64,000 nt of DNA, taken from assembly GCF_010119975.1 (NCBI RefSeq), contig NZ_CP048222.1, positions 1,323,501 to 1,387,500 of the forward strand, given 5' to 3'. The stretch comes from Rhodocytophaga rosea. Lineage in GTDB: Bacteria; Bacteroidota; Bacteroidia; Cytophagales; 172606-1. Positions 13,784-60,837 of this stretch are shown here, one piece after another (position 1 is the first letter of the stretch; each line of letters opens with the position of its first letter). Below the pieces are notes generated by a model. That model searched no databases. It was given only the letters and a program-made list of their open reading frames with translations, and was not told the DNA's origin. Made by a program: the position numbers and the translations under genes.

Positions 13784-14113
13784 ATGTCTACTAAAAAAAC
13801 CTATACGAGTGAATTTAAACAAGAAGCTGTAAGGTTAGTCCAACAGAGTAGGAATACAAGCGAAACTGCACGTAATTTGGGTGTCGCCTCTAGTGTATTG
13901 GGACGCTGGAAAAAAGAATTGGTGCAGGATGGAGAGAAAGGTTTTCCAGGCAAAGGACATACTAAAGATGAAGAATTGCATCAATTGCAACGAGAGAATC
14001 AACGATTAAAAGAAACGGTAGAAATCTTAAAAAAGGCAATGGGTATCGGATCTCAACCAGGGCTTGATCTGGGATCCGCACCAACCGCTCCTAGCAAGAT
14101 ACCAGTTTATTAA
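13784..14113 (+). CDS. IS3-family transposase OrfA
   Basis: A 109-residue DNA-binding protein with the HTH_Tnp_1 pattern: TYTSEFKQEAVRLVQQSRN, then SETARNLGVASSVLGRWKKE and a leucine-zipper-like tail (LHQLQRENQRLKETVEILKK). In intact IS3 elements this protein recognises the inverted repeats and is joined to OrfB by -1 frameshifting. The C-terminal 20 residues (GSQPGLDLGSAP) look aberrant, so the junction to orfB is probably damaged. Confidence 0.85.
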   Translation: MSTKKTYTSEFKQEAVRLVQQSRNTSETARNLGVASSVLGRWKKELVQDGEKGFPGKGHTKDEELHQLQRENQRLKETVEILKKAMGIGSQPGLDLGSAPTAPSKIPVY

Positions 14114-20543: not shown

Positions 20544-20843
20544 GTGGAAAAGATGAAAAAAACGAGGAGAAAATTTACAGCTGCTTTCAAGGCGAAAGTG
20601 GCATTGGAAGCGCTTAAAGAGCGGGAAACATTAGCGGCTTTGTCGGCCCGCTTTGAGGTACACGCCAACCAGATATCGCTGTGGAAGCAGGAATTTTTAA
20701 CTAATTCGGAGCTGGTATTCTCTTCCACAGAAGGGAAAGAAAAAGAAGAGCAGGTAAACTTAGATGCGCTTTATGCTAAGATTGGGCAACTGGAGATGGA
20801 ACGCGACTTTTTAAAAAAAAGCTTGAAGAAGACCGGACTGTAA
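20544..20843 (+). CDS. IS3-family transposase OrfA
   Basis: A 99-residue protein with a basic HTH_Tnp_1 domain (RKFTAAFKAKVALEALKE, LSARFEVHANQISLWKQEF) followed by a coiled-coil segment (LYAKIGQLEMERDFLKKSLK). It would bind the IS ends. Near the 3' end, an A8 run followed by G at about 20814-20822 is a classic -1 frameshift site, and the stop TAA overlaps the OrfB ATG, so both a separate OrfB and a fused OrfAB are possible. Confidence 0.9.
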   Translation: MEKMKKTRRKFTAAFKAKVALEALKERETLAALSARFEVHANQISLWKQEFLTNSELVFSSTEGKEKEEQVNLDALYAKIGQLEMERDFLKKSLKKTGL

Positions 20844-21664
20844 TGGAGCGTAAATCACTGGTTAGTCCTCAAGCAAAGCTTAGCCTTCGCCAGCAATGCC
20901 GTTTACTTTCTATCAGCCGGGCCTCTTTCTATTATGAGCCTAAACAAGAGAATGCAGATAATTTAGGAATGATGCAGCTCATGGATGCCCATATATTAGA
21001 AGAACCAACGGCCGGAGTGCTGACAATGCAGTCGATGCTGGAGGAAAAGGGTTATAAAGCAGGTTACGAGCGGATAAGAAGATTGATGCGGCTGGCTAAC
21101 ATCCGGCCTATCTACCCCCGAAAGCAACTGACGCAGTTAGGGGACAAAAAGTATATCTATCCTTATTTGCTCAGGAACTTAAAAGTAGAGCGGGCAAACC
21201 AGGTATGGGCTATAGATATTACCTATGTTGCGATGGCTAAAGGGTTTATGTATTTGACGGCTGTGATAGATGTGTATAGCCGCTATATTGTGGGCTGGGG
21301 CTTGTCTAATACATTGGATGCTGAGGCTAGCTTGCAGGTGTTGAAAGCAGCGGTAGCTGAGCATGGTAAGCCCGGGATTGTCAACAGCGACCAGGGTAGC
21401 CAGTTTACCTGTAAAGAGTATGTAGAATATTTAAAAAGTGAATCTATCCGTATCAGTATGGATGGCAAAGGCAGGGCACTGGATAATATATTTATAGAAA
21501 GGTTTTGGCGGACCATTAAATACCAGCATATTTACCTGAACCCGGCCACTGATGGCATCTCCCTCTACCAGGGCATCAGTGGCTGGATGGAGAAATACAA
21601 TCAAAGGCCACACCAGGGAATTGACCGAAACAAGCCCATTAATCTTTATAAAATGGCAGCTTAA
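20843..21664 (+). CDS. IS3-family transposase OrfB (integrase catalytic subunit)
   Basis: A 273-residue protein. An HTH_21 segment (LRQQCRLLSISRASFYYEP, EKGYKAGYERIRRLMR) is followed by an rve integrase core with all three acidic residues: WAIDITYVAM (Asp), IVNSDQGSQFT (Asp) and IFIERFWRTIKYQHIYL (Glu). It should be active. The start ATG overlaps the OrfA stop. Full length for the family, no lesion seen. Confidence 0.92.
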   Translation: MERKSLVSPQAKLSLRQQCRLLSISRASFYYEPKQENADNLGMMQLMDAHILEEPTAGVLTMQSMLEEKGYKAGYERIRRLMRLANIRPIYPRKQLTQLGDKKYIYPYLLRNLKVERANQVWAIDITYVAMAKGFMYLTAVIDVYSRYIVGWGLSNTLDAEASLQVLKAAVAEHGKPGIVNSDQGSQFTCKEYVEYLKSESIRISMDGKGRALDNIFIERFWRTIKYQHIYLNPATDGISLYQGISGWMEKYNQRPHQGIDRNKPINLYKMAA

Positions 21665-38507: not shown

Positions 38508-39104
38508 CTATTCCATAGAGGTTGTAATCTTGCTGATGGCTTCTAAAATGTAAGGGTATCCGGTTAGAGAGGCGATCTGTCTTTGCCCATAACTTTTAGC
38601 CGTATTAGTGATCCAGGCTTCCAGTTCTTGTTCATGGCTGAAGTTGTGAAAAGCTACTTTGTTTTTCATATCCCCCCACAGCCTTTCGACCGGATTGAGT
38701 TCAGGGTTGGAAGAAGGTAAATACACCAGGCGGATATTTTGGGGCACTTGCAAGGCTTTTGCCCGGTGATAGCCTGCTTTGTCTACAAAGATAAACTTGA
38801 ACACTTGCGGTTGATGGCGGCTAAACTCCTCAAGCATATACTCAAAGTAAAGCGTGTTAACCTGTGGGGCAGTAATAAAGAAGTGATCTCCTGTCAGCGG
38901 TTCTACCAATCCATAGCAGTAGCGGTAGATGAAGCGGTGCTGATAGGCTCCTACCGGTTTTATGCCGGCAAGGGTGATGGCTCTTCTCAAAACAGTCATC
39001 AAACCAAAGCGGCTCTCATCCTGATAGTACACCTTCCAATGGCTGACTACCCCTTTGGCAGCCAAAGGAGCATAGTAGCGCTGTAAGAGGAAAGTGAGCA
39101 CCAA
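38508..39104 (-). CDS. IS630-family transposase, catalytic part (DDE)
   Basis: A 198-residue segment with a DDE_3 endonuclease fold: VYYQDESRFGLM with the first acidic residues, FKFIFVDKAGYHRA with the second Asp region and LPSSNPELNPVERLWGDMKN with the terminal Glu. It has no proper start of its own. An A8 run at the end of the preceding frame (39111-39118 on the plus strand as T8) allows a -1 shift that joins both parts into one transposase. This is the expected expression mode of many IS630 members. Confidence 0.9.
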   Translation of the reverse strand: MVLTFLLQRYYAPLAAKGVVSHWKVYYQDESRFGLMTVLRRAITLAGIKPVGAYQHRFIYRYCYGLVEPLTGDHFFITAPQVNTLYFEYMLEEFSRHQPQVFKFIFVDKAGYHRAKALQVPQNIRLVYLPSSNPELNPVERLWGDMKNKVAFHNFSHEQELEAWITNTAKSYGQRQIASLTGYPYILEAISKITTSME

Positions 39105-39106
39105 GT

Positions 39107-39601
39107 TTAGTTTTTTTTATACTTCTGCTCATAGGCTAGATCCTTTTTCAGGTTGCTCTTTCTAACCACTTTCAGCTTTGCCCCCAGCTGTCGGTGGACA
39201 AACCAATGTACATGCTCATAGCTCAGATCAATGCCATGCGCCGTGTGCAACCACTCATGGATTTGCTTATAAGAAGTAAAATAGTTGTTTGGATCAGCAA
39301 GCTTTGCCTTCAACTGCTCAAGTACTTTACCTGCAATCTGTGATGCCCTTTTGTGGCCGCCCGGATCTATCTGAAGACAGGCTTGCAGCCCTTTCTGTTT
39401 GTAAAGCCGGAACCACTGGCCCACTGCATGACGCTCATAGCCTACGGCAGCAGCTATTTGTCCATACGCTTTAGCCTGCCCACTCTTGTAGAGGTAAAAA
39501 GCCCGCAGTCTGGCTCCGGCTAGCGGATGGGCTATTTTTTTGCTCATCTTCAGCAACTGCTCGGCACTCTCGATGAGCTCAGTTTTGGTTACTCTTCCCA
39601 T
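39107..39601 (-). CDS. IS630-family transposase, N-terminal DNA-binding part
   Basis: A 164-residue winged-helix and HTH protein (KAYGQIAAAVGYERHAVGQW, LQIDPGGHKRASQIAGKVLE, YKQIHEWLHTAHGIDLSYEH) that binds the IS ends. It terminates in KYKKN directly after an A8 slippery run, where a -1 frameshift would continue as KKLNLVLTFLLQ into the catalytic frame. No lesion apart from this programmed site. Confidence 0.9.
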   Translation of the reverse strand: MGRVTKTELIESAEQLLKMSKKIAHPLAGARLRAFYLYKSGQAKAYGQIAAAVGYERHAVGQWFRLYKQKGLQACLQIDPGGHKRASQIAGKVLEQLKAKLADPNNYFTSYKQIHEWLHTAHGIDLSYEHVHWFVHRQLGAKLKVVRKSNLKKDLAYEQKYKKN

Positions 39602-42358: not shown

Positions 42359-43482
42359 CTACCTCTTTGTGGCTTGATCAAATATGCGGCAATAATTCTC
42401 ACCTCCAATTTTCGAAATTTCATCCTCATTAAATCCTGAGTTTAACATGGCCTCTACCACGGAGTAAAAGAAGCCTTCTGTTTGGGTTGTCCAAGCCTTA
42501 TTTGTTTTACTCCCAAACGGTTCACTTGCATTTGCAGGAACAGCGATTTTAGTGTCTGTTCCTATACAAATGTGTTCTACTCCAACTACATCTACCAGGG
42601 AACGAATGTGTTGAGCATATGCCAGGGGGTATCGGCAAGGTGTGTCCACACCCCAATCACACCACCCGCATTAGCTACGATTTTAGCTTGTTCTTTACTT
42701 ATGAGCCTGGGCATCATCATTTTTGCCATTTTTTCATCTTTACCAACTTGGGTATTCAGCCCTGTATGAGAGATAATAATAGGTTTATTTGTTACTTCAA
42801 GCGCATCATTAATTGCCTCATTGCTACAATGAGCAAGGTCAATGAGAATACCGAGTCTATTACATTCTTTAATTACATTCACTCCAGATTCGGTGAGCCC
42901 TCCAAACTGTGAGGGATCGGTATAAATGTCTCCTAAAGGTACTAAAGATTGATTGTCGTGTAGTAATCCTAAATGCCTTAAGCCTCTCTTATAAGCAATT
43001 TCTACCCGTTCTAGTTTTCCCTCTACAAAATGTCCGCCTTCCACCGATTGAATAACAATGGGCTTGTTTTCTTTTCGAGCCTTTTTTATATCCGAAAAAT
43101 TTAGGGCATGTTTTATATAATTGGCATTTAAAATTTCATCCATTTGGTCTAAACTTAAAATGAATCGCTTGTAAGCTTCTCCTTCTTTCGTCAGTTTAGG
43201 GCGGTCAACCTGAAAGGTCATACAGATACCCGATAGGCCTGAGGTTTTCATCTCTGTAGCCAACTCATATTTTTGGCCAACGTTCTCTTCAGTTTTAAAA
43301 GGAACATCGATATGATTGTGCGTATCAATTGCAATCGTTTTGGCAACAATGGCAGCTACTTTGGGGTCAATTTCACTAGTAGCCCAAGAGGAAAATGGGT
43401 TAACTATTATGGCAGTTCCTGCACCTGTTATAGTTGCCATAAACTTGCGTCATGACCATGCTTGATTTATACTATCCATCAT
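42359..43482 (-). pseudogene. Membrane dipeptidase (peptidase M19) with Tat-signal stop and frameshift
   Basis: Most of an M19 zinc dipeptidase is present: IDTHNHID, QSVEGGHFVEG, LIDLAHCSNEA, IIISHTGLNTQ and, in the second frame, HICIGTD. Two lesions break it. First, TGA at 43450-43452 falls in the signal region MMDSINQAWS-RKFMATITGAG; Arg (CGA) there would restore a Tat motif SRRKFM. Second, the frame changes at C5 (plus-strand G5, 42625-42629) after THLADTP; six C would join it to LAYAQHIRSLVDVVGVEH. The rest reads through to RIFDQATKR. Restored length is about 374 residues, normal for the family. Confidence 0.8.
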
Positions 43483-52520: not shown

Positions 52521-53528
52521 ATGAAAGAAAAAAGTAAAATTAACAGACGTCAAGTTATTGGTGGCCTAGGAATGAGTTTAGCCTCCGTAGTGGCCCCACC
52601 AGTGTTTGCAGCCTCACAAGCTCAGCAACCATCCCCATTAGATGTGCAAGCTCTCACAGATCCTACCACTTTGTACCCAAAACCACCCTTCAAAAGTCAA
52701 TCTCAACCCTGGCCCGGGCTTGCCTCCAAAATGGACCCTGTGCCCGATCATGGCGAGAAAAGCTACAAAGGCTCCGGCCGGTTGATGGGACGTAAGGCTT
52801 TGATCACCGGAGGGGATTCCGGAATGGGACGTGCGGCTGCCATTGCTTATGCACGGGAAGGAGCGGATGTAGCTATTAATTATATGCCGGATGAGGAGCC
52901 GGATGCCCGTGAAGTGATTGCCCTGATAAAGGCAGCCGGACGAAAGGCCATTGCCATTCCTGGAGATATCCGGGAAGAAGCTTTTTGTCAAAGACTAGTA
53001 GCAGAAGCCGTTAAGGGGCTGGGAGGCCTAGATATTTTGGTGAGTAATGCGGCAAGACAGCAAGCTAAGCAGTCTATTCTTGATATTTCCACCGAAGAAT
53101 TTGATGCAACAATAAAAACCAATATTTATGCTCCCTTTTGGATCATTAAAGCAGCCCTTCCCCACCTAAAGCCAGGGGCAGTTATCATTGGTACTACTTC
53201 TGAGCAAGCCACTGATCCCTCTGCCGATCTATACGACTATGCCCAAACCAAAGCGGCTACCACGAATTATGTCAGATCCCTTGCCAAACAGCTAGCCCCA
53301 AAAGGGATTCGCGTCAATGGAGTAGCCCCTGGACCCATCTGGACTCCTTTGCAAGTGAGCGGGGGAGCCACACAGGAAAAACTCAAAGGCTTTGGAGGGG
53401 ATACTCCACTAGGCAGGCCTGGTCAGCCGGTAGAACTAGCTTCCATTTATGTACAACTTGCCGCCAGTGATGCAAGCTATGCCATAGGGCAAATCTATGG
53501 AGCTACCGGCGGCGGCGGTCAACCTTAA
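52521..53528 (+). CDS. Short-chain dehydrogenase/reductase with Tat-like signal
   Basis: A 335-residue SDR. The N-terminus NRRQVIGGLGMSLASVVA looks like a Tat signal, so the enzyme may be exported. The core has the NAD(P) loop ITGGDSGMGRAAAIAYAREG, the NAAR region, Ser in IGTTSEQ and the catalytic pair in YDYAQTKAATTNY. About 45 residues before the core (GYGxK-type extension PWPGLASKMDPVPDHGEKSY) are typical of YhdF/GolD-like SDRs. Substrate unknown. Complete and without lesions. Confidence 0.9.
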   Translation: MKEKSKINRRQVIGGLGMSLASVVAPPVFAASQAQQPSPLDVQALTDPTTLYPKPPFKSQSQPWPGLASKMDPVPDHGEKSYKGSGRLMGRKALITGGDSGMGRAAAIAYAREGADVAINYMPDEEPDAREVIALIKAAGRKAIAIPGDIREEAFCQRLVAEAVKGLGGLDILVSNAARQQAKQSILDISTEEFDATIKTNIYAPFWIIKAALPHLKPGAVIIGTTSEQATDPSADLYDYAQTKAATTNYVRSLAKQLAPKGIRVNGVAPGPIWTPLQVSGGATQEKLKGFGGDTPLGRPGQPVELASIYVQLAASDASYAIGQIYGATGGGGQP

Positions 53529-56066: not shown

Positions 56067-56485
56067 ATCCGATGATGGTTATTTAATCTGCTAAAGTTAA
56101 CCCTTTCACGCCACTTTCTACCCATTTGTTCATTGAATAACTTCCTGAAAAGTGGTTCAATGAAATATAGAAAAACCCATTATTCACAATCAAATTTGGT
56201 CAATAAAGCCTGGCCATTACACCAGTTCTTTGTGAGCCAACAGAATTCTGATTTTATTCTACAAAAGCGTATCACGAAAGGGGAGGTTTATTTACTCGTC
56301 AACCTATAACCGGATAAGGCTGGCTTTACTTATGTTAAGTATTATTTATTGGGAGGAATTCATCGTAAACCGCTACCTTGTTTTGCTCAATCAATTGCTT
56401 TACTTTAAAGGCAGGCTTACCTATTTTTTATACTTAAATTTTGAAAAGTTCATAAAAGGCGCTACACGATCTAAGAAACACGAAA
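56067..56485. other. Intergenic region with a dispersed repeat copy
   Basis: Carries the repeat core at 56271-56305 (CACGAAAGGGGAGGTTTATT then TCAACCT), the best match to the copy at 4498. No gene seen; the region must hold the promoter of the ceramidase-HiPIP unit. Confidence 0.4.
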
Positions 56486-57870
56486 ATGAAGACATTAATT
56501 TCACTTCCAGTCATATTTCTCTTTTTCAGCTTGACCTATCTTCATGCGGAGGCACTCGATGAGCTGCAAGGAGGTCATGCTGGATGGAAAGCGGGGGTAG
56601 CCCGGGTAGTAATTACACCTCAACAATCGATGTGGATGGCAGGCTATGCAAACCGCGACCATTCTTCTGAAGGTACCTTACATGAGTTGTGGGCAAAAGC
56701 TTTAGTACTAGAAGATGCAGGTGGTAAACGGGCTGTATTGGTTACCGCAGATTTACTGGGAATTCCCAAGGAATTATCCCACCACATCCGCAACCAGTTA
56801 GAAAGTAAGTATCAGTTATCCAGGGCGCAGGTTATACTCAATAGTTCACATACGCACTCTGGCCCGGTGTTACAGGGTGCGCTGCTAGACATATATCCCT
56901 GGACGCATTGCAGCAGAAGAAAATTGAACAATACTCCAGTAAGCTGGCTGACCAGATAGTGTCTTTAGTTGGAAATGCCTTGAAGGCTTTGAAACCAGTA
57001 CAGCTCTATGCACAAAATGGAGTTACCCGCTTTCAGGTGAACAGGCGGAATAACAATGAATCAACATTGCTCCAGCAGAACGAGTTAAAAGGCCCAAACG
57101 ATTATGCAGTTCCTGTACTAAAAGTGATAGATGAAAAGGGTAAATTAATGGCTGTTGCCTTTGGGTATGCCTGTCACAACACCGTTTTGAATGGCTATCA
57201 GTGGTCGGGAGATTATGCTGGCTTTGCCCAGTTACAATTAGAAAAGTCATATCCGGGTGTAACAGCGTTATTTTTTCAAGGAGCTGGTGCAGATCAAAAT
57301 CCTTTGCCTCGCCGGACAGTGGCTTTAGCCCAGCAATATGGAAAAACGCTGGCTGCTGCGGTGGAAAGAGTGCTGGCTGAAGATATGCGTAAACTCCCGC
57401 CTCAACTCGCAACGGCATATTCCGAAGTAGAATTGTCGTTAACTAGTCCGCCAACGAAAGAAGAATTGTTAAAAATAGCTGAAACCTCTTCCGATTATCA
57501 GAAACGATGGGCCACACGTTTGGTGAAGCAAATTGAGCAGGGACAATCATTTAAAACAAGCTATCCTTATCCGGTTCAGATCTGGCAACTTGGTGATCAA
57601 ACCCTGATTAGTTTGGGAGGTGAACTTGTGGTAGGGTATGCCATCGAACTCAAACGAATCTTTGGTCCGGATATATTTGTCTTGGGTTATTCTAATGATG
57701 TGATGGCGTATATTCCCTCCTCAACTATACTCAAAGAAGGTGGCTACGAAGGTGAATCCTCACAAATGGTTTACGGATTACCCAGCAAATGGGCACCCAC
57801 TATTGAAGCAAGCATATTCGGAGAGATCATGCGGTTAGCCGAGCAAGTTGGGTTGCAAAAAGTCAAATAA
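56486..57870 (+). pseudogene. Neutral/alkaline ceramidase-like secreted protein, frameshift in a C3 run
   Basis: Signal peptide (LPVIFLFFSLTYLHAEA), then a ceramidase N-terminal type domain: AGVARVVITPQQSMWMAGYA, the metal-ligand motif NSSHTHSGPVL and GYACHNTVLNGYQWSGDYAG. The frame stops at 56959. At C3 (56897-56899) one more C gives LDALQQKKIEQYSSKLADQI and continues to 57870. Restored length is about 461 residues. Ceramidase-like proteins of this short type are common in Bacteroidota and Planctomycetes with PVC-type dehydrogenases; the substrate need not be ceramide. First gene of a three-gene unit. Confidence 0.8.
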
Positions 57871-57964
57871 AACCAGTGGAACTACAGCACACATTGGCTG
57901 CTATTGTGTAAAATAGGGCAAAGAATTATATAAAATGAAAACAACAAACCTGATTCACCGACAG

Positions 57965-60084
57965 ATGAAATATCATTTTATTGGCCTGCTGCCTTTTTTA
58001 ATCTTTCTCTCTGTTTCCTGTTCTGAACAGCAACAACATTATACAGATCCATTATCGCCGGAAGAAGCATTAAGCAGTTTTCAACTCAACGATGAATTTA
58101 CTATTGAACTATTTGCCGCAGAACCCTTTGTGAAGGACCCTGTTGAAATGATATTTGATGAGCAAGGAAATGCCTATGTGGTAGAAATGCCCGATTATCC
58201 CTATAAACCCGAACCTGGAAAAGCCACCGGACGCATCCGTAAGCTTGTAGATAAAGATGGCGATGGCCGGATAGATGAATCCATCGTATTTGCCGATAGC
58301 CTTTCAGAAGCAACCAGTATGTTACCCTGGAAGGACGGACTGTTGGTAACGGCTGCACCCCATATACTGTATCTGAAAGATACCAATGAAGATTTTCGTG
58401 CAGATACCAGAGAAGTGCTTTTTACTGGATTTTTTGAGAATAACTCAGAAGCACAAATTACTAATCTCCGCTTTGGGGTGGATAATTGGATCTATGCTTC
58501 TAATCATGGACAGGATGGCAGCGTAACTTTTAGCAGAAAGCCAGAGGCAGCACCGCTTTCCATGCGGGGAGCAGATTTTAGGTTTCGTCTTGACCGGGGA
58601 GAATTTGAATTGGAAACAGGACCTGCCCAGTTTGGACAGGCGCTTGATGACTTTGGGCACCGGTTCATCACACAGAACACCTTACACATCCGGCAAGCAG
58701 TTATTCCAGGGAGATATTTACACAGGCATCCGTACTTACCTTCAATCAATGCGGTGGAAAATATCTCTGATCATGAACTAGACATGTTCCAGCAGACACC
58801 ACCCCTTACTGGCGCGCTGAACGTACAAAGCGCCGGAACATACAATATAAGGAACAAAAACTGGATAGAACTGAATACGCAGATGATCATTTTACCGGGG
58901 CTTCCGGCGCAACTTTCTATGCGGGAGATGCTTTTCCTGAAACATTCTATGGCAACATTTTTACAGGAGATGTGGCTGGTAATCTAGTCCATAGAGACAT
59001 TATTACGAGGCATGATACCAGCGCCACCTTTATTGCATCGCGTGATCTGGCAGAGAAAGACAGAGAGTTTTTGAGTTCCACTGACCCCTGGTTTCGTCCG
59101 TGCAATTTTACTGTAGGGCCCGATGGCTACTTATATGTAATCGATATGTATAGACAACATATTGAAACACCTGTGTCTATTCCGGATGATCTGAAGGAAG
59201 ATATGGACTTCAAGAGAGGAAGTGAGTATGGAAGAATCTACCGTATTGTGCCAAAAAATGACAGATCGAAGAGGAAGGCGTTTACAAATATGAAGAAAAT
59301 GGAGACACTAGAGTTGGTAGAGAATCTTTCTCATCCCAACCAATGGTGGCGCCTTCAGGCACAAAGACTTTTGCTGGAACGTCTGGATACATCTGTTGTT
59401 ACTTCTTTAAAAACCATGTTTAGAGAAAATAAGGACCCAAGAACCCGTTTGCATGCTTTTTTTGCATTGGAAGGGCTAGGTGCGCTGGATGCCACCCTTG
59501 TTAAACAGGCCATGCAGGACACTCACCCTGGCGTACGGGAATATGGAATCATCCTGGCTGAGCGTTATCCGGAATGTTTGCCTTTAATTATAGAAAAAGT
59601 AGATGATCACTCAGCCAGGGTAGCCTTGCAGGCAAGTCTGAGTCTGGGAGCGTTTTCTGCTCGACAAGCAGCCCCAACCTTAGCAAAAGTTTTAGAGAGA
59701 TACGGACAAAATCCATGGTTTAGAATGGCTGTATTAAGCGCTGATGCCGGATCTTCGCTTGACTTGCTGGAATTGCTATTGAAACAGCATTCATTTTTCA
59801 GCAGAGATACCCCAGAAAAAGTCGCCTTCCTGGAAGATTTTTCCTACGTAATTGGCTCCCGTAACCGGGAAGGGGAAGTCAGCCGCTTTTTACAATTATT
59901 AGCCGCTGAAGACCAAATGAAAGAAAAAAACTGGCAGTTTGCAGGTTTAAAAGGGTTGGAGAAAGGTTTGAAAAAATCTGAAAATAAACTTACAGCAGAT
60001 GCCCATTTGAAACAGGTATTACAACGCTTGCAGGCTGATTCTACGAGCGAGGCTAAAGCAGCTATCGAAACTATCAGCAAATAA
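57965..60084 (+). pseudogene. PVC-type membrane dehydrogenase lipoprotein, one-base frameshift
   Basis: A lipoprotein (LIFLSVSCSEQ) with a beta-propeller of the membrane-bound dehydrogenase kind: FTIELFAAEPFVKDPVEMIF, NAYVVEMPDYPY, RIRKLVDKDGDGRIDESIVF. Near 58882 one base is missing: CAGG in place of CAG would connect NTQ to DDHFTGASGATFYAGDAF and the second frame (GNIFTGDVAGNLVHR, VIDMYRQHIETP). HEAT-like repeats follow to 60084. Family members usually end in a cytochrome c domain with CxxCH. None is present here, and the protein stops after the HEAT repeats. A HiPIP gene 28 bp downstream may replace that electron carrier. Confidence 0.8.
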
Positions 60085-60112
60085 GTAGAGTAATAAAAAA
60101 TTTGAATTACTA

Positions 60113-60471
60113 ATGATGAAGCAAGCATATTCCAGGCGAACATTCCTTCAAAAGTATATATATGTAAGTACCATGTTTTTAAGTGGTGGTCTGATGCTAA
60201 GCAGGTGCAATCAGAGAAAGACTTCACAACAAGAGGAAAAACCAACTGTTGCTGCGGATGCGTGTACTGACTTTTCCGGAGTGAGTGAAAAAGATATGCA
60301 GGCACGCCAAAAATTAGGCTATGTAAAAGATTCGCCTATGTCAGATATGCAATGTAGCAATTGTAACCTCTGGCTCCCCCTCCTGCTGGTATAGCGTGCG
60401 GTAAATGTATGATCCTGAAAGGCCCTGTTTACGGGTCAGCTTACTGCACGTACTGGGCTCCTCAAGTATGA
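60113..60471 (+). pseudogene. High-potential iron-sulfur protein (HiPIP), frameshift in a C5 run
   Basis: The N-terminus has a Tat-like SRRTFLQK motif and a lipobox-like LSRC. The HiPIP domain starts ACTDFSGVSEKDMQARQKLG, YVKDSPMSDMQCSNCNLW. The frame then stops at 60392. At C5 (60376-60380) one more C yields LPPPAGIACGKCMILKGP and VYGSAYCTYWAPQV, ending at 60471. The four cluster cysteines (CSNC, later C and C) are then all present. HiPIPs carry single electrons at high potential in the periplasm. It follows the dehydrogenase by 28 bp. Confidence 0.78.
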
Positions 60472-60837
60472 ACTAATAATAGTATGATATTTTAAGTATA
60501 CAGCCATTAGCTCTCAGTTTTCAGATAAATAAGGGGGTTAGCCTATTTACTAGTGGCGTATATTGAATACAATCCTGTATCGTTGGTTTGAACTTTATAT
60601 TTGTTTTCCGGCACTTTATCAAGCGGTCTTCTCCTGATATAAGTTGTCAACACTTTTTATTTTCATATCCAAGTCAATATGGCCAAAGGGAAATATTATT
60701 GAAGTAAAAGTTGGTAGCTATTCCTTTCTCTCTTGCCCATAGATAAAGATTCAATAAAAGGGCTGTTTTTATAACTCAATACAGAAGCTATCAAAAGTAA
60801 TGACAGCTTCTGTATTGGATCGATGCTTCTATATTCA
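60472..60837. other. Intergenic region with repeat end and hairpin
   Basis: Contains GGTCTTCTCCTGATATAAG at 60625-60643, similar to the left end of the dispersed repeat, and the hairpin at 60777-60817. No gene seen. Confidence 0.45.
60777..60817 (-). terminator. Hairpin terminator candidate for the hydrolase gene
   Basis: CAATACAGAAGCT and AGCTTCTGTATTG pair perfectly (13 bp) across a 15-base loop, 20 bp after the stop of the minus-strand hydrolase. On that strand it is followed by AGTTATAAAAAC rather than a strong T-run, so efficiency is uncertain. Confidence 0.55.

Follow-up and report, generated by a model that had tools for sequence, protein, structure and literature searches.

Which protein would take the electrons from a propeller dehydrogenase that has no cytochrome domain of its own? 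The question is raised by a three-gene unit of Rhodocytophaga rosea, located within a stretch of 64,000 nucleotides (contig NZ_CP048222.1, positions 1,323,501 to 1,387,500; hereafter the window), in which a ceramidase-like gene, a beta-propeller gene with HEAT repeats and a gene for a high-potential iron-sulfur protein (HiPIP) all run in a single direction on the forward strand. A first-pass annotation had described this trio and proposed that the HiPIP stands in for the cytochrome c usually fused to such enzymes; the trio was borne out, with the amendment that each gene carries one break (see below). We consider it likely that the unit encodes a membrane-anchored periplasmic oxidoreductase together with its own electron acceptor, i.e., a dedicated enzyme–HiPIP pair. 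The replacement of one carrier by another is well supported by the distribution of the genes, and the grounds are sequence-based: the absence of a carrier domain, a conserved neighbourhood, a separate group of HiPIPs, a predicted fold and the signals. From these we infer the reaction between enzyme and HiPIP, the direction of the electrons, a sugar or a derivative of one as the substrate, and the terminal acceptor.

Carriers of the propeller enzymes

The two pieces of the window propeller (57935-58987 and 58972-60084) matched PF23500 with E values of 7.5e-75 and 2.9e-28 (253 and 99.7 bits; cut-off 27) and TIGR02604 with 159 bits for the first piece (cut-off 122; 62 bits for the second), followed by a HEAT_2 match (E 1.4e-8). 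This layout of propeller and HEAT repeats is like that of the PVC-type heme-binding CxxCH proteins (TIGR02604/PF23500, HEAT and cytochrome c), in whose long forms the HEAT stretch continues into the CxxCH domain, whereas the window type has no C-terminal cytochrome c, is about 700 instead of about 1000 residues long and is adjoined by a HiPIP gene. The first-pass annotation had allowed for a cytochrome c domain that might surface once the reading was corrected. We checked this and found CxxCH on the forward strand of 56400-60600 in the third frame only, which is used by none of the three genes, so that the corrected reading lacks a cytochrome domain.

The same annotation had suggested looking for an anticorrelation between a neighbouring HiPIP and the C-terminal cytochrome domain, and it was found in three partly overlapping samples. 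For sample 1, species genomes were scanned with the first propeller piece alone, and the resulting 36 loci were examined for their open reading frames (ORFs) and searched with a HiPIP profile derived from the neighbours. Thirty-one of the 36 enzymes lacked CxxCH; apart from L063, which is split, those that are complete and occupy one frame have 626-793 residues. The other five contained CxxCH (985-1468 residues). A HiPIP was found at 27 of the 31 CxxCH-less loci compared to none of the five CxxCH loci; in 24 loci it shared the enzyme's strand and was -8 to 137 bases away (the start in L041 was reset from the alignment of profile A2, see below), in L042 it lay one gene further and in L050 on the opposite strand. 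At L057 and L064 the contig ends inside the enzyme gene. According to titles and labels, several families of Bacteroidota are represented, Balneolota contributes one locus, and a few species account for two loci each.

Sample 2 started from the HiPIP. Profile A2, a HiPIP profile made from relatives only (31 rows), was run on 392 genomes of the phylum with up to 11 candidates scored per genome, and matched in 42, two of which (G587 and G707) were partial, probably false, and were dropped from the counts. Among the propeller matches listed, the HiPIP lay beside a propeller in eight of 46 HiPIP-holding genomes, the window's included. These eight genomes held 146 propeller matches, of which the best 102 were analysed besides the two rows of the window; one contig-edge fragment and 41 weaker matches made up the remainder. 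An in-frame CxxCH, identified by motif, was present in 78 of the 102, none of which had a HiPIP in the flanking stretch. Seven lacked CxxCH and had a HiPIP in every case. The remaining 17 had neither, and a simple rule that an enzyme without CxxCH has a HiPIP was discarded on their account; longer stretches and Pfam searches showed that these genes have cupredoxins, except for one with a cupredoxin-like ORF nearby and one cut by an in-frame stop. In detail, a cupredoxin domain (PF00127) is fused to 14, either N- or C-terminally (the five N-terminal matches are partial), L213 has a fused cupredoxin by sequence motif alone, L225 has no fusion and a cupredoxin-like ORF 1.2 kb downstream, again by sequence motif alone, and L207 (199-3228, genome G497) is a long form whose cytochrome part goes on in frame past one in-frame stop. 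These tallies suggest that nearly every propeller has one carrier, be it heme, copper or HiPIP.

For sample 3, an intact relative was used as the query on 384 genomes of the phylum (two candidates scored per genome, matches at 1e-60). This returned 21 propeller genes, six of them common to sample 2: all four without CxxCH had a HiPIP, compared to none of the 17 with CxxCH in short flanks. The proposal that the HiPIP stands in for the fused cytochrome was thus upheld by the anticorrelation, and also by the enzyme clade and the separate HiPIP group described below, but the cytochrome is not the sole alternative, since 15 of the 102 enzymes in sample 2 have a cupredoxin. DUF7133 proteins with a fused cupredoxin, in which ThuA or GDSL domains are frequent, share the propeller and the lack of CxxCH with the window type; their carrier is a fused copper domain (PF00127, N or C end), whereas the window type would use an iron-sulfur protein. 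Several of the cupredoxin-bearing propellers that we noted (L236, L237, L152, L167, L181, L245, L246, L248, L249 and others) have ThuA or GDSL domains. L091 and L099, in which the HiPIP is embedded in a long open frame, were considered as fusions and rejected, as their upstream part has no known domain by sight and the HiPIP has its own signal.

The paired HiPIP and its enzyme

The window HiPIP was found by A2 in two pieces (102 and 35.5 bits). The four cysteines that serve as cluster ligands, in HiPIP spacing, are invariant in A2 (C86, C89, C104 and C117), and all four are present in the window, spread across the frame break. The PF01355 profile had no match in the genome of the window organism and none in the eight genomes of its family, which is explained by the split HiPIP gene of the window and by the lack of a close copy of the enzyme in the seven other family genomes; on a hand-made 41-residue read-through peptide of the window it scored 20.9 bits against a cut-off of 22. 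Within the order, PF01355 exceeded its cut-off in seven of 341 genomes, in four of which the match lies beside such an enzyme among the propellers listed. The Tat-like (twin-arginine translocation) signal and the spacing of 28 bases between the stop of the propeller and the start of the HiPIP, both pointed out by the first-pass annotation, are present: SRRTFLQ is followed by a hydrophobic stretch and then, after an unusual Arg, by a Cys at 60206-60208. In A2, the first Arg of the pair (R10) and this type of Cys (C34) are invariant and R11 is conserved in at least 90% of the rows. By motif, with its twin Arg and lipobox-like Cys, the paired HiPIP is a predicted Tat-type exported lipoprotein. 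Among solved structures, the HiPIP profile was nearest to 3h31 (E 5.8e-28), which we take to be the HiPIP of Rhodothermus marinus. The cysteine pattern of the two is alike, an extra Cys pair included, whereas the paired HiPIPs adjoin an enzyme and cluster separately within the phylum's HiPIPs, in a tree from which 3h31 itself is absent.

This tree was built from 34 paired and 31 unpaired HiPIPs for which loci were available (few columns, short search; L037, a duplicate, and L100, the broken copy of the window, were omitted). One branch, with a support of 97, has all 34 paired HiPIPs on one side and 30 of the 31 unpaired ones on the other. The enzymes were placed on a FastTree phylogeny of 137 propellers, from which the incomplete L057 and L064 were dropped. 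Here, L051, L058 and the HiPIP-type rows make up a single group of 37 (support 98). Its sisters, with which it totals 39 rows (support 100), are L067 and L068, two cytochrome forms from Bryobacterales, and all lie inside a larger group of cytochrome forms. The first piece of the window propeller shares 47-50% identity with these two, the nearest cytochrome rows in the tree; a 162-165-residue ORF that follows the Bryobacterales enzymes was considered as a carrier and, by sight, is not one. The cupredoxin label changes five times on the same tree, with at least four changes forced. As placed by this tree, the switch to HiPIP is one event that was kept in many lineages.

Several observations weigh against a dedicated pair, the first of which concern this distribution. 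The single switch means that the anticorrelation within the samples does not consist of independent cases. In L054 the HiPIP lies 3.9 kb upstream of the enzyme, and no HiPIP was seen at L051 and L058, where about 1.1 kb of contig is left after the enzyme gene. The one exception on the HiPIP tree, G280 (L251:6615-9434), retains a HiPIP of the paired group with no propeller in the 16 kb examined. An alternative explanation, that the HiPIP is a general respiratory carrier merely co-transcribed with an enzyme that donates its electrons elsewhere, e.g., to a soluble cytochrome c, would account for G280 and for the finding that, among the propellers listed, only five of the 40 genomes with a full match have the HiPIP beside a propeller, most HiPIPs lying away from one. 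It also draws on the R. marinus HiPIP, which is named in a passage of PMC5928083 as an electron acceptor of alternative complex III, a role that counts for the dedicated pair as well. A shared carrier of this kind is at odds with the branch that separates the paired HiPIPs, and with the absence of any HiPIP beside the CxxCH propellers of samples 2 (0/78) and 3 (0/17), and we consider it unlikely. Two unrelated observations on the HiPIP loci may be recorded here: by sight, the gene preceding the HiPIP in G280 resembles a GFO/IDH protein with a twin-Arg signal, and an unpaired HiPIP (L253:5958-9426, G020) lies between two membrane-protein-like ORFs with one CxxCH each.

For the fold of the enzyme, we turned to an intact relative (L038), which shares 71% and 59% identity with the window propeller over its two pieces. 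Its AlphaFold model, with a predicted local distance difference test score (pLDDT) of 89.7, consists of a beta propeller plus a helical region formed by the HEAT repeats. The best structural match was 3a9g (Z 22.1, root-mean-square deviation 3.4, 286 residues), followed by 7cgz (Z 21.6) and 2ism (Z 21.4), all three of which are sugar dehydrogenases or so named. The propeller fold is thus shared with the pyrroloquinoline quinone (PQQ) aldose sugar dehydrogenases (3a9g, 2ism, 3das and 2g8s from E. coli; Z 19.4-22.1), and a C-terminal stretch with a GPDG motif aligns with E. coli YliI, while identity to these enzymes is 13-18% and the His at the catalytic position has been lost in the HiPIP clade. 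At the N terminus, a Cys closing the hydrophobic stretch was seen by eye in 24 of the 25 CxxCH-less relatives in alignment A1, the exception being L049. Under the proposed mechanism, the enzyme would be a lipoprotein in which a HEAT-repeat domain comes after a propeller of the PQQ sugar dehydrogenase fold; the fused cytochrome c or cupredoxin of its relatives would have been lost in the HiPIP clade; and the HiPIP, a Tat-type lipoprotein encoded by the next gene, would take electrons singly from the reduced enzyme and feed them into the respiratory chain, where a terminal oxidase would probably receive them.

The other points against a dedicated pair concern the enzyme itself. In YliI, the His before a blade motif (NHFGG) is the one that we take to be catalytic. 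Of the 84 cytochrome forms, 72 have a His at that place or one before it, as do all 16 cupredoxin forms, whereas none of 35 HiPIP forms has a His at -8, -9 or -10 and 33 of them have Glu at -9; the alignment with YliI covers the last part of the propeller only, so that this position was set by motif and offset and not by structure. As the His is not kept in the HiPIP clade, the name dehydrogenase rests on the fold and on the company of the gene. PqqE did not exceed its cut-off in any of eight paired genomes, nor in any control genome, which is compatible with an uptake of PQQ. Finally, lactose hydrolysis is reported, in a passage of PMC5342196, for a Verrucomicrobia protein of the TIGR02604-HEAT-cytochrome type (Lac161_ORF7).

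The missing His and the reported lactose hydrolysis would suit a propeller that is a hydrolase or lactonase, with the HiPIP serving another protein of the operon, and propellers of the SMP30/DFPase type do follow closely behind the sugar dehydrogenases in the structural comparison (Z 19-20). A hydrolase would need no carrier, however, and 100 of the 102 relatives in sample 2 have CxxCH, a fused cupredoxin or a HiPIP, the other two being the enzyme with the cupredoxin-like ORF 1.2 kb away and the one with the interrupted cytochrome; together with the three best fold matches, this makes a hydrolase very unlikely. Based on the sequences and the model, an oxidoreductase acting on sugar-like substrates is the most likely identity of the enzyme. 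The cytochrome sisters L067 and L068 also have Glu at the His position, which indicates that the change in the active site is not tied to the HiPIP; it came before or with the switch and is no proof of a new chemistry. More speculatively, the HiPIP branch and its cytochrome sisters may have rebuilt the active site (His to Glu or Ala) and oxidise their substrate without the usual PQQ-His chemistry, with the HiPIP branch subsequently wired to a carrier of its own, so that heme c, blue copper and HiPIP would be interchangeable modules on one scaffold, one carrier per enzyme; we put this forward as a tentative idea with the odds against it.

The window locus and its neighbourhood

Comparison with relatives by tblastn revealed one frame change in each of the three genes, always from frame 2 to frame 1 (Table 1), while the relatives hold intact copies of the same genes. 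The window copy itself may therefore be broken.

Table 1 Features of the three-gene unit in the window (positions count from the first letter of the window).
Feature	Position	Strand	Basis or remark
Ceramidase-like hydrolase (PF04734 N-terminal domain)	56486..57870	+	frame change ~56869-56929
Propeller enzyme DUF7133/TIGR02604, without CxxCH	57935..60084	+	frame change ~58804
Lipobox-like Cys of the propeller (LSVSC)	58019..58021	+	sequence
HEAT repeats (PF13646) after the propeller	59494..59730	+	profile match
HiPIP with twin-Arg signal and lipobox-like Cys	60113..60471 (end approximate)	+	frame change ~60380-60387
First two ligand Cys of the HiPIP (CxxC)	60353..60364	+	sequence; invariant in A2
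Extra Cys, then the two other ligand Cys of the HiPIP	60397..60447	+	in A2, C101 at least 90%; C104 and C117 invariant

One possible explanation is decay, with three pseudogenes whose arrangement is the relic of a past function. Three frame changes within 4 kb, one per gene, are in line with this when compared to the 18 further propeller genes among the matches listed in this genome, whose open frames span 770-1280 residues, as is the lack of a close copy of the enzyme in the seven other genomes of the family (best identity 40-42%; two of these genomes are 72-75% complete). On the other hand, all three changes have the same direction and the frames are otherwise clean, so that a decaying locus and a badly read stretch with a base-calling fault both fit. 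We regard decay as a real possibility, somewhat short of an even chance. It would leave the pair of the relatives untouched, in which the enzyme is in one frame in 26 of the 27 HiPIP-holding loci (L063 is split).

The upstream gene was annotated from two ORFs, the first of which (56486-56959) matched PF04734 with an E value of 1.2e-13 (51 bits, cut-off 32), while the second (56908-57870) had no PF04734 match. The protein shares 60-65% identity with intact copies in L039 (Dyadobacter luticola) and L059 and contains the metal-site motif SSHTHSGP. In a census of genes within 7 kb of the enzyme in 38 loci (31 + 7; one to six members scanned per cluster), the cluster of this gene was present in 12 loci, in seven of them at 56-66% identity. 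Compared to neutral ceramidase (2zws), the N-terminal half with the metal site aligns (E 1.3e-19), whereas the protein is shorter (about 455 versus 646 residues) and has Asn at the place of the nucleophile Ser, which presumably corresponds to a position in the DQNP stretch. This Asn was found in nine sequences, the window's included (four cluster members are incomplete or outside the comparison, and the profile alignment stops just before it).

The first-pass annotation had also suggested that the ceramidase-like hydrolase supplies the substrate of the enzyme by removing an acyl group. This would agree with the 12 of 38 loci that have the cluster close to the pair, and with the conservation of HTHxGP in all 12, of which one was scanned for PF04734, as was the window, with PF04734 likewise kept. 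The suggestion fared poorly, however: besides the Asn at the presumed Ser site, a member of the same family is found next to a cytochrome-type propeller of the same genome, both of which disfavour deacylation, and genes of the amidohydrolase-2 type are equally frequent near the pair (13 of 38 loci). Deacylation of the enzyme's substrate is accordingly highly doubtful. The amidohydrolase-2 family includes sugar lactonases, and a lactonase of this kind would suit an aldose-oxidising enzyme. Other neighbours in the 38 loci were DegT-type aminotransferases (11), TonB-receptor plugs (9) and GFO/IDH proteins (8 and 5), as well as a 445-residue family with no Pfam match over cut-off (a weak Kelch match) in 12 loci (L044:2711-4045, from Chitinophaga barathri, and 11 others), which is often accompanied by a DegT aminotransferase and the ceramidase-like gene. 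A further neighbour cluster, present in 18 loci, was tried as a ceramidase and discarded: PF04734 matched at 1e-3 or better in two of six scanned members, none over the cut-off.

Elsewhere in the window, two overlapping ORFs at 42362-43440 lie on the same strand in different frames and may be one broken gene, and ORFs at 13784-14110, 20544-21661 and 38511-39601 resemble transposases of insertion sequences by sight. A short-chain dehydrogenase (PF13561) at 52521-53528 has a twin-Arg-like signal and is probably exported.

A probable third carrier for the propeller family

A literature search that covered few subscription papers returned no description of a HiPIP-paired form of the DUF7133/TIGR02604 enzymes, and a search on HiPIPs with dehydrogenases, PQQ and gene clusters returned no report of a HiPIP acting with a sugar-dehydrogenase-like enzyme. 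The HiPIP-paired type is a variant of a known propeller family, which it widens to three chemically different carrier modules. A single genome of these bacteria can have as many as 25 matches to the DUF7133 propeller family, on which the literature that we found holds almost no biochemistry. The rule of one carrier per propeller makes the adjoining HiPIP a testable physiological acceptor. It also provides a native acceptor with which to assay the enzyme and search for its substrate, and the pair would give HiPIPs a role with a sugar-dehydrogenase-like enzyme.

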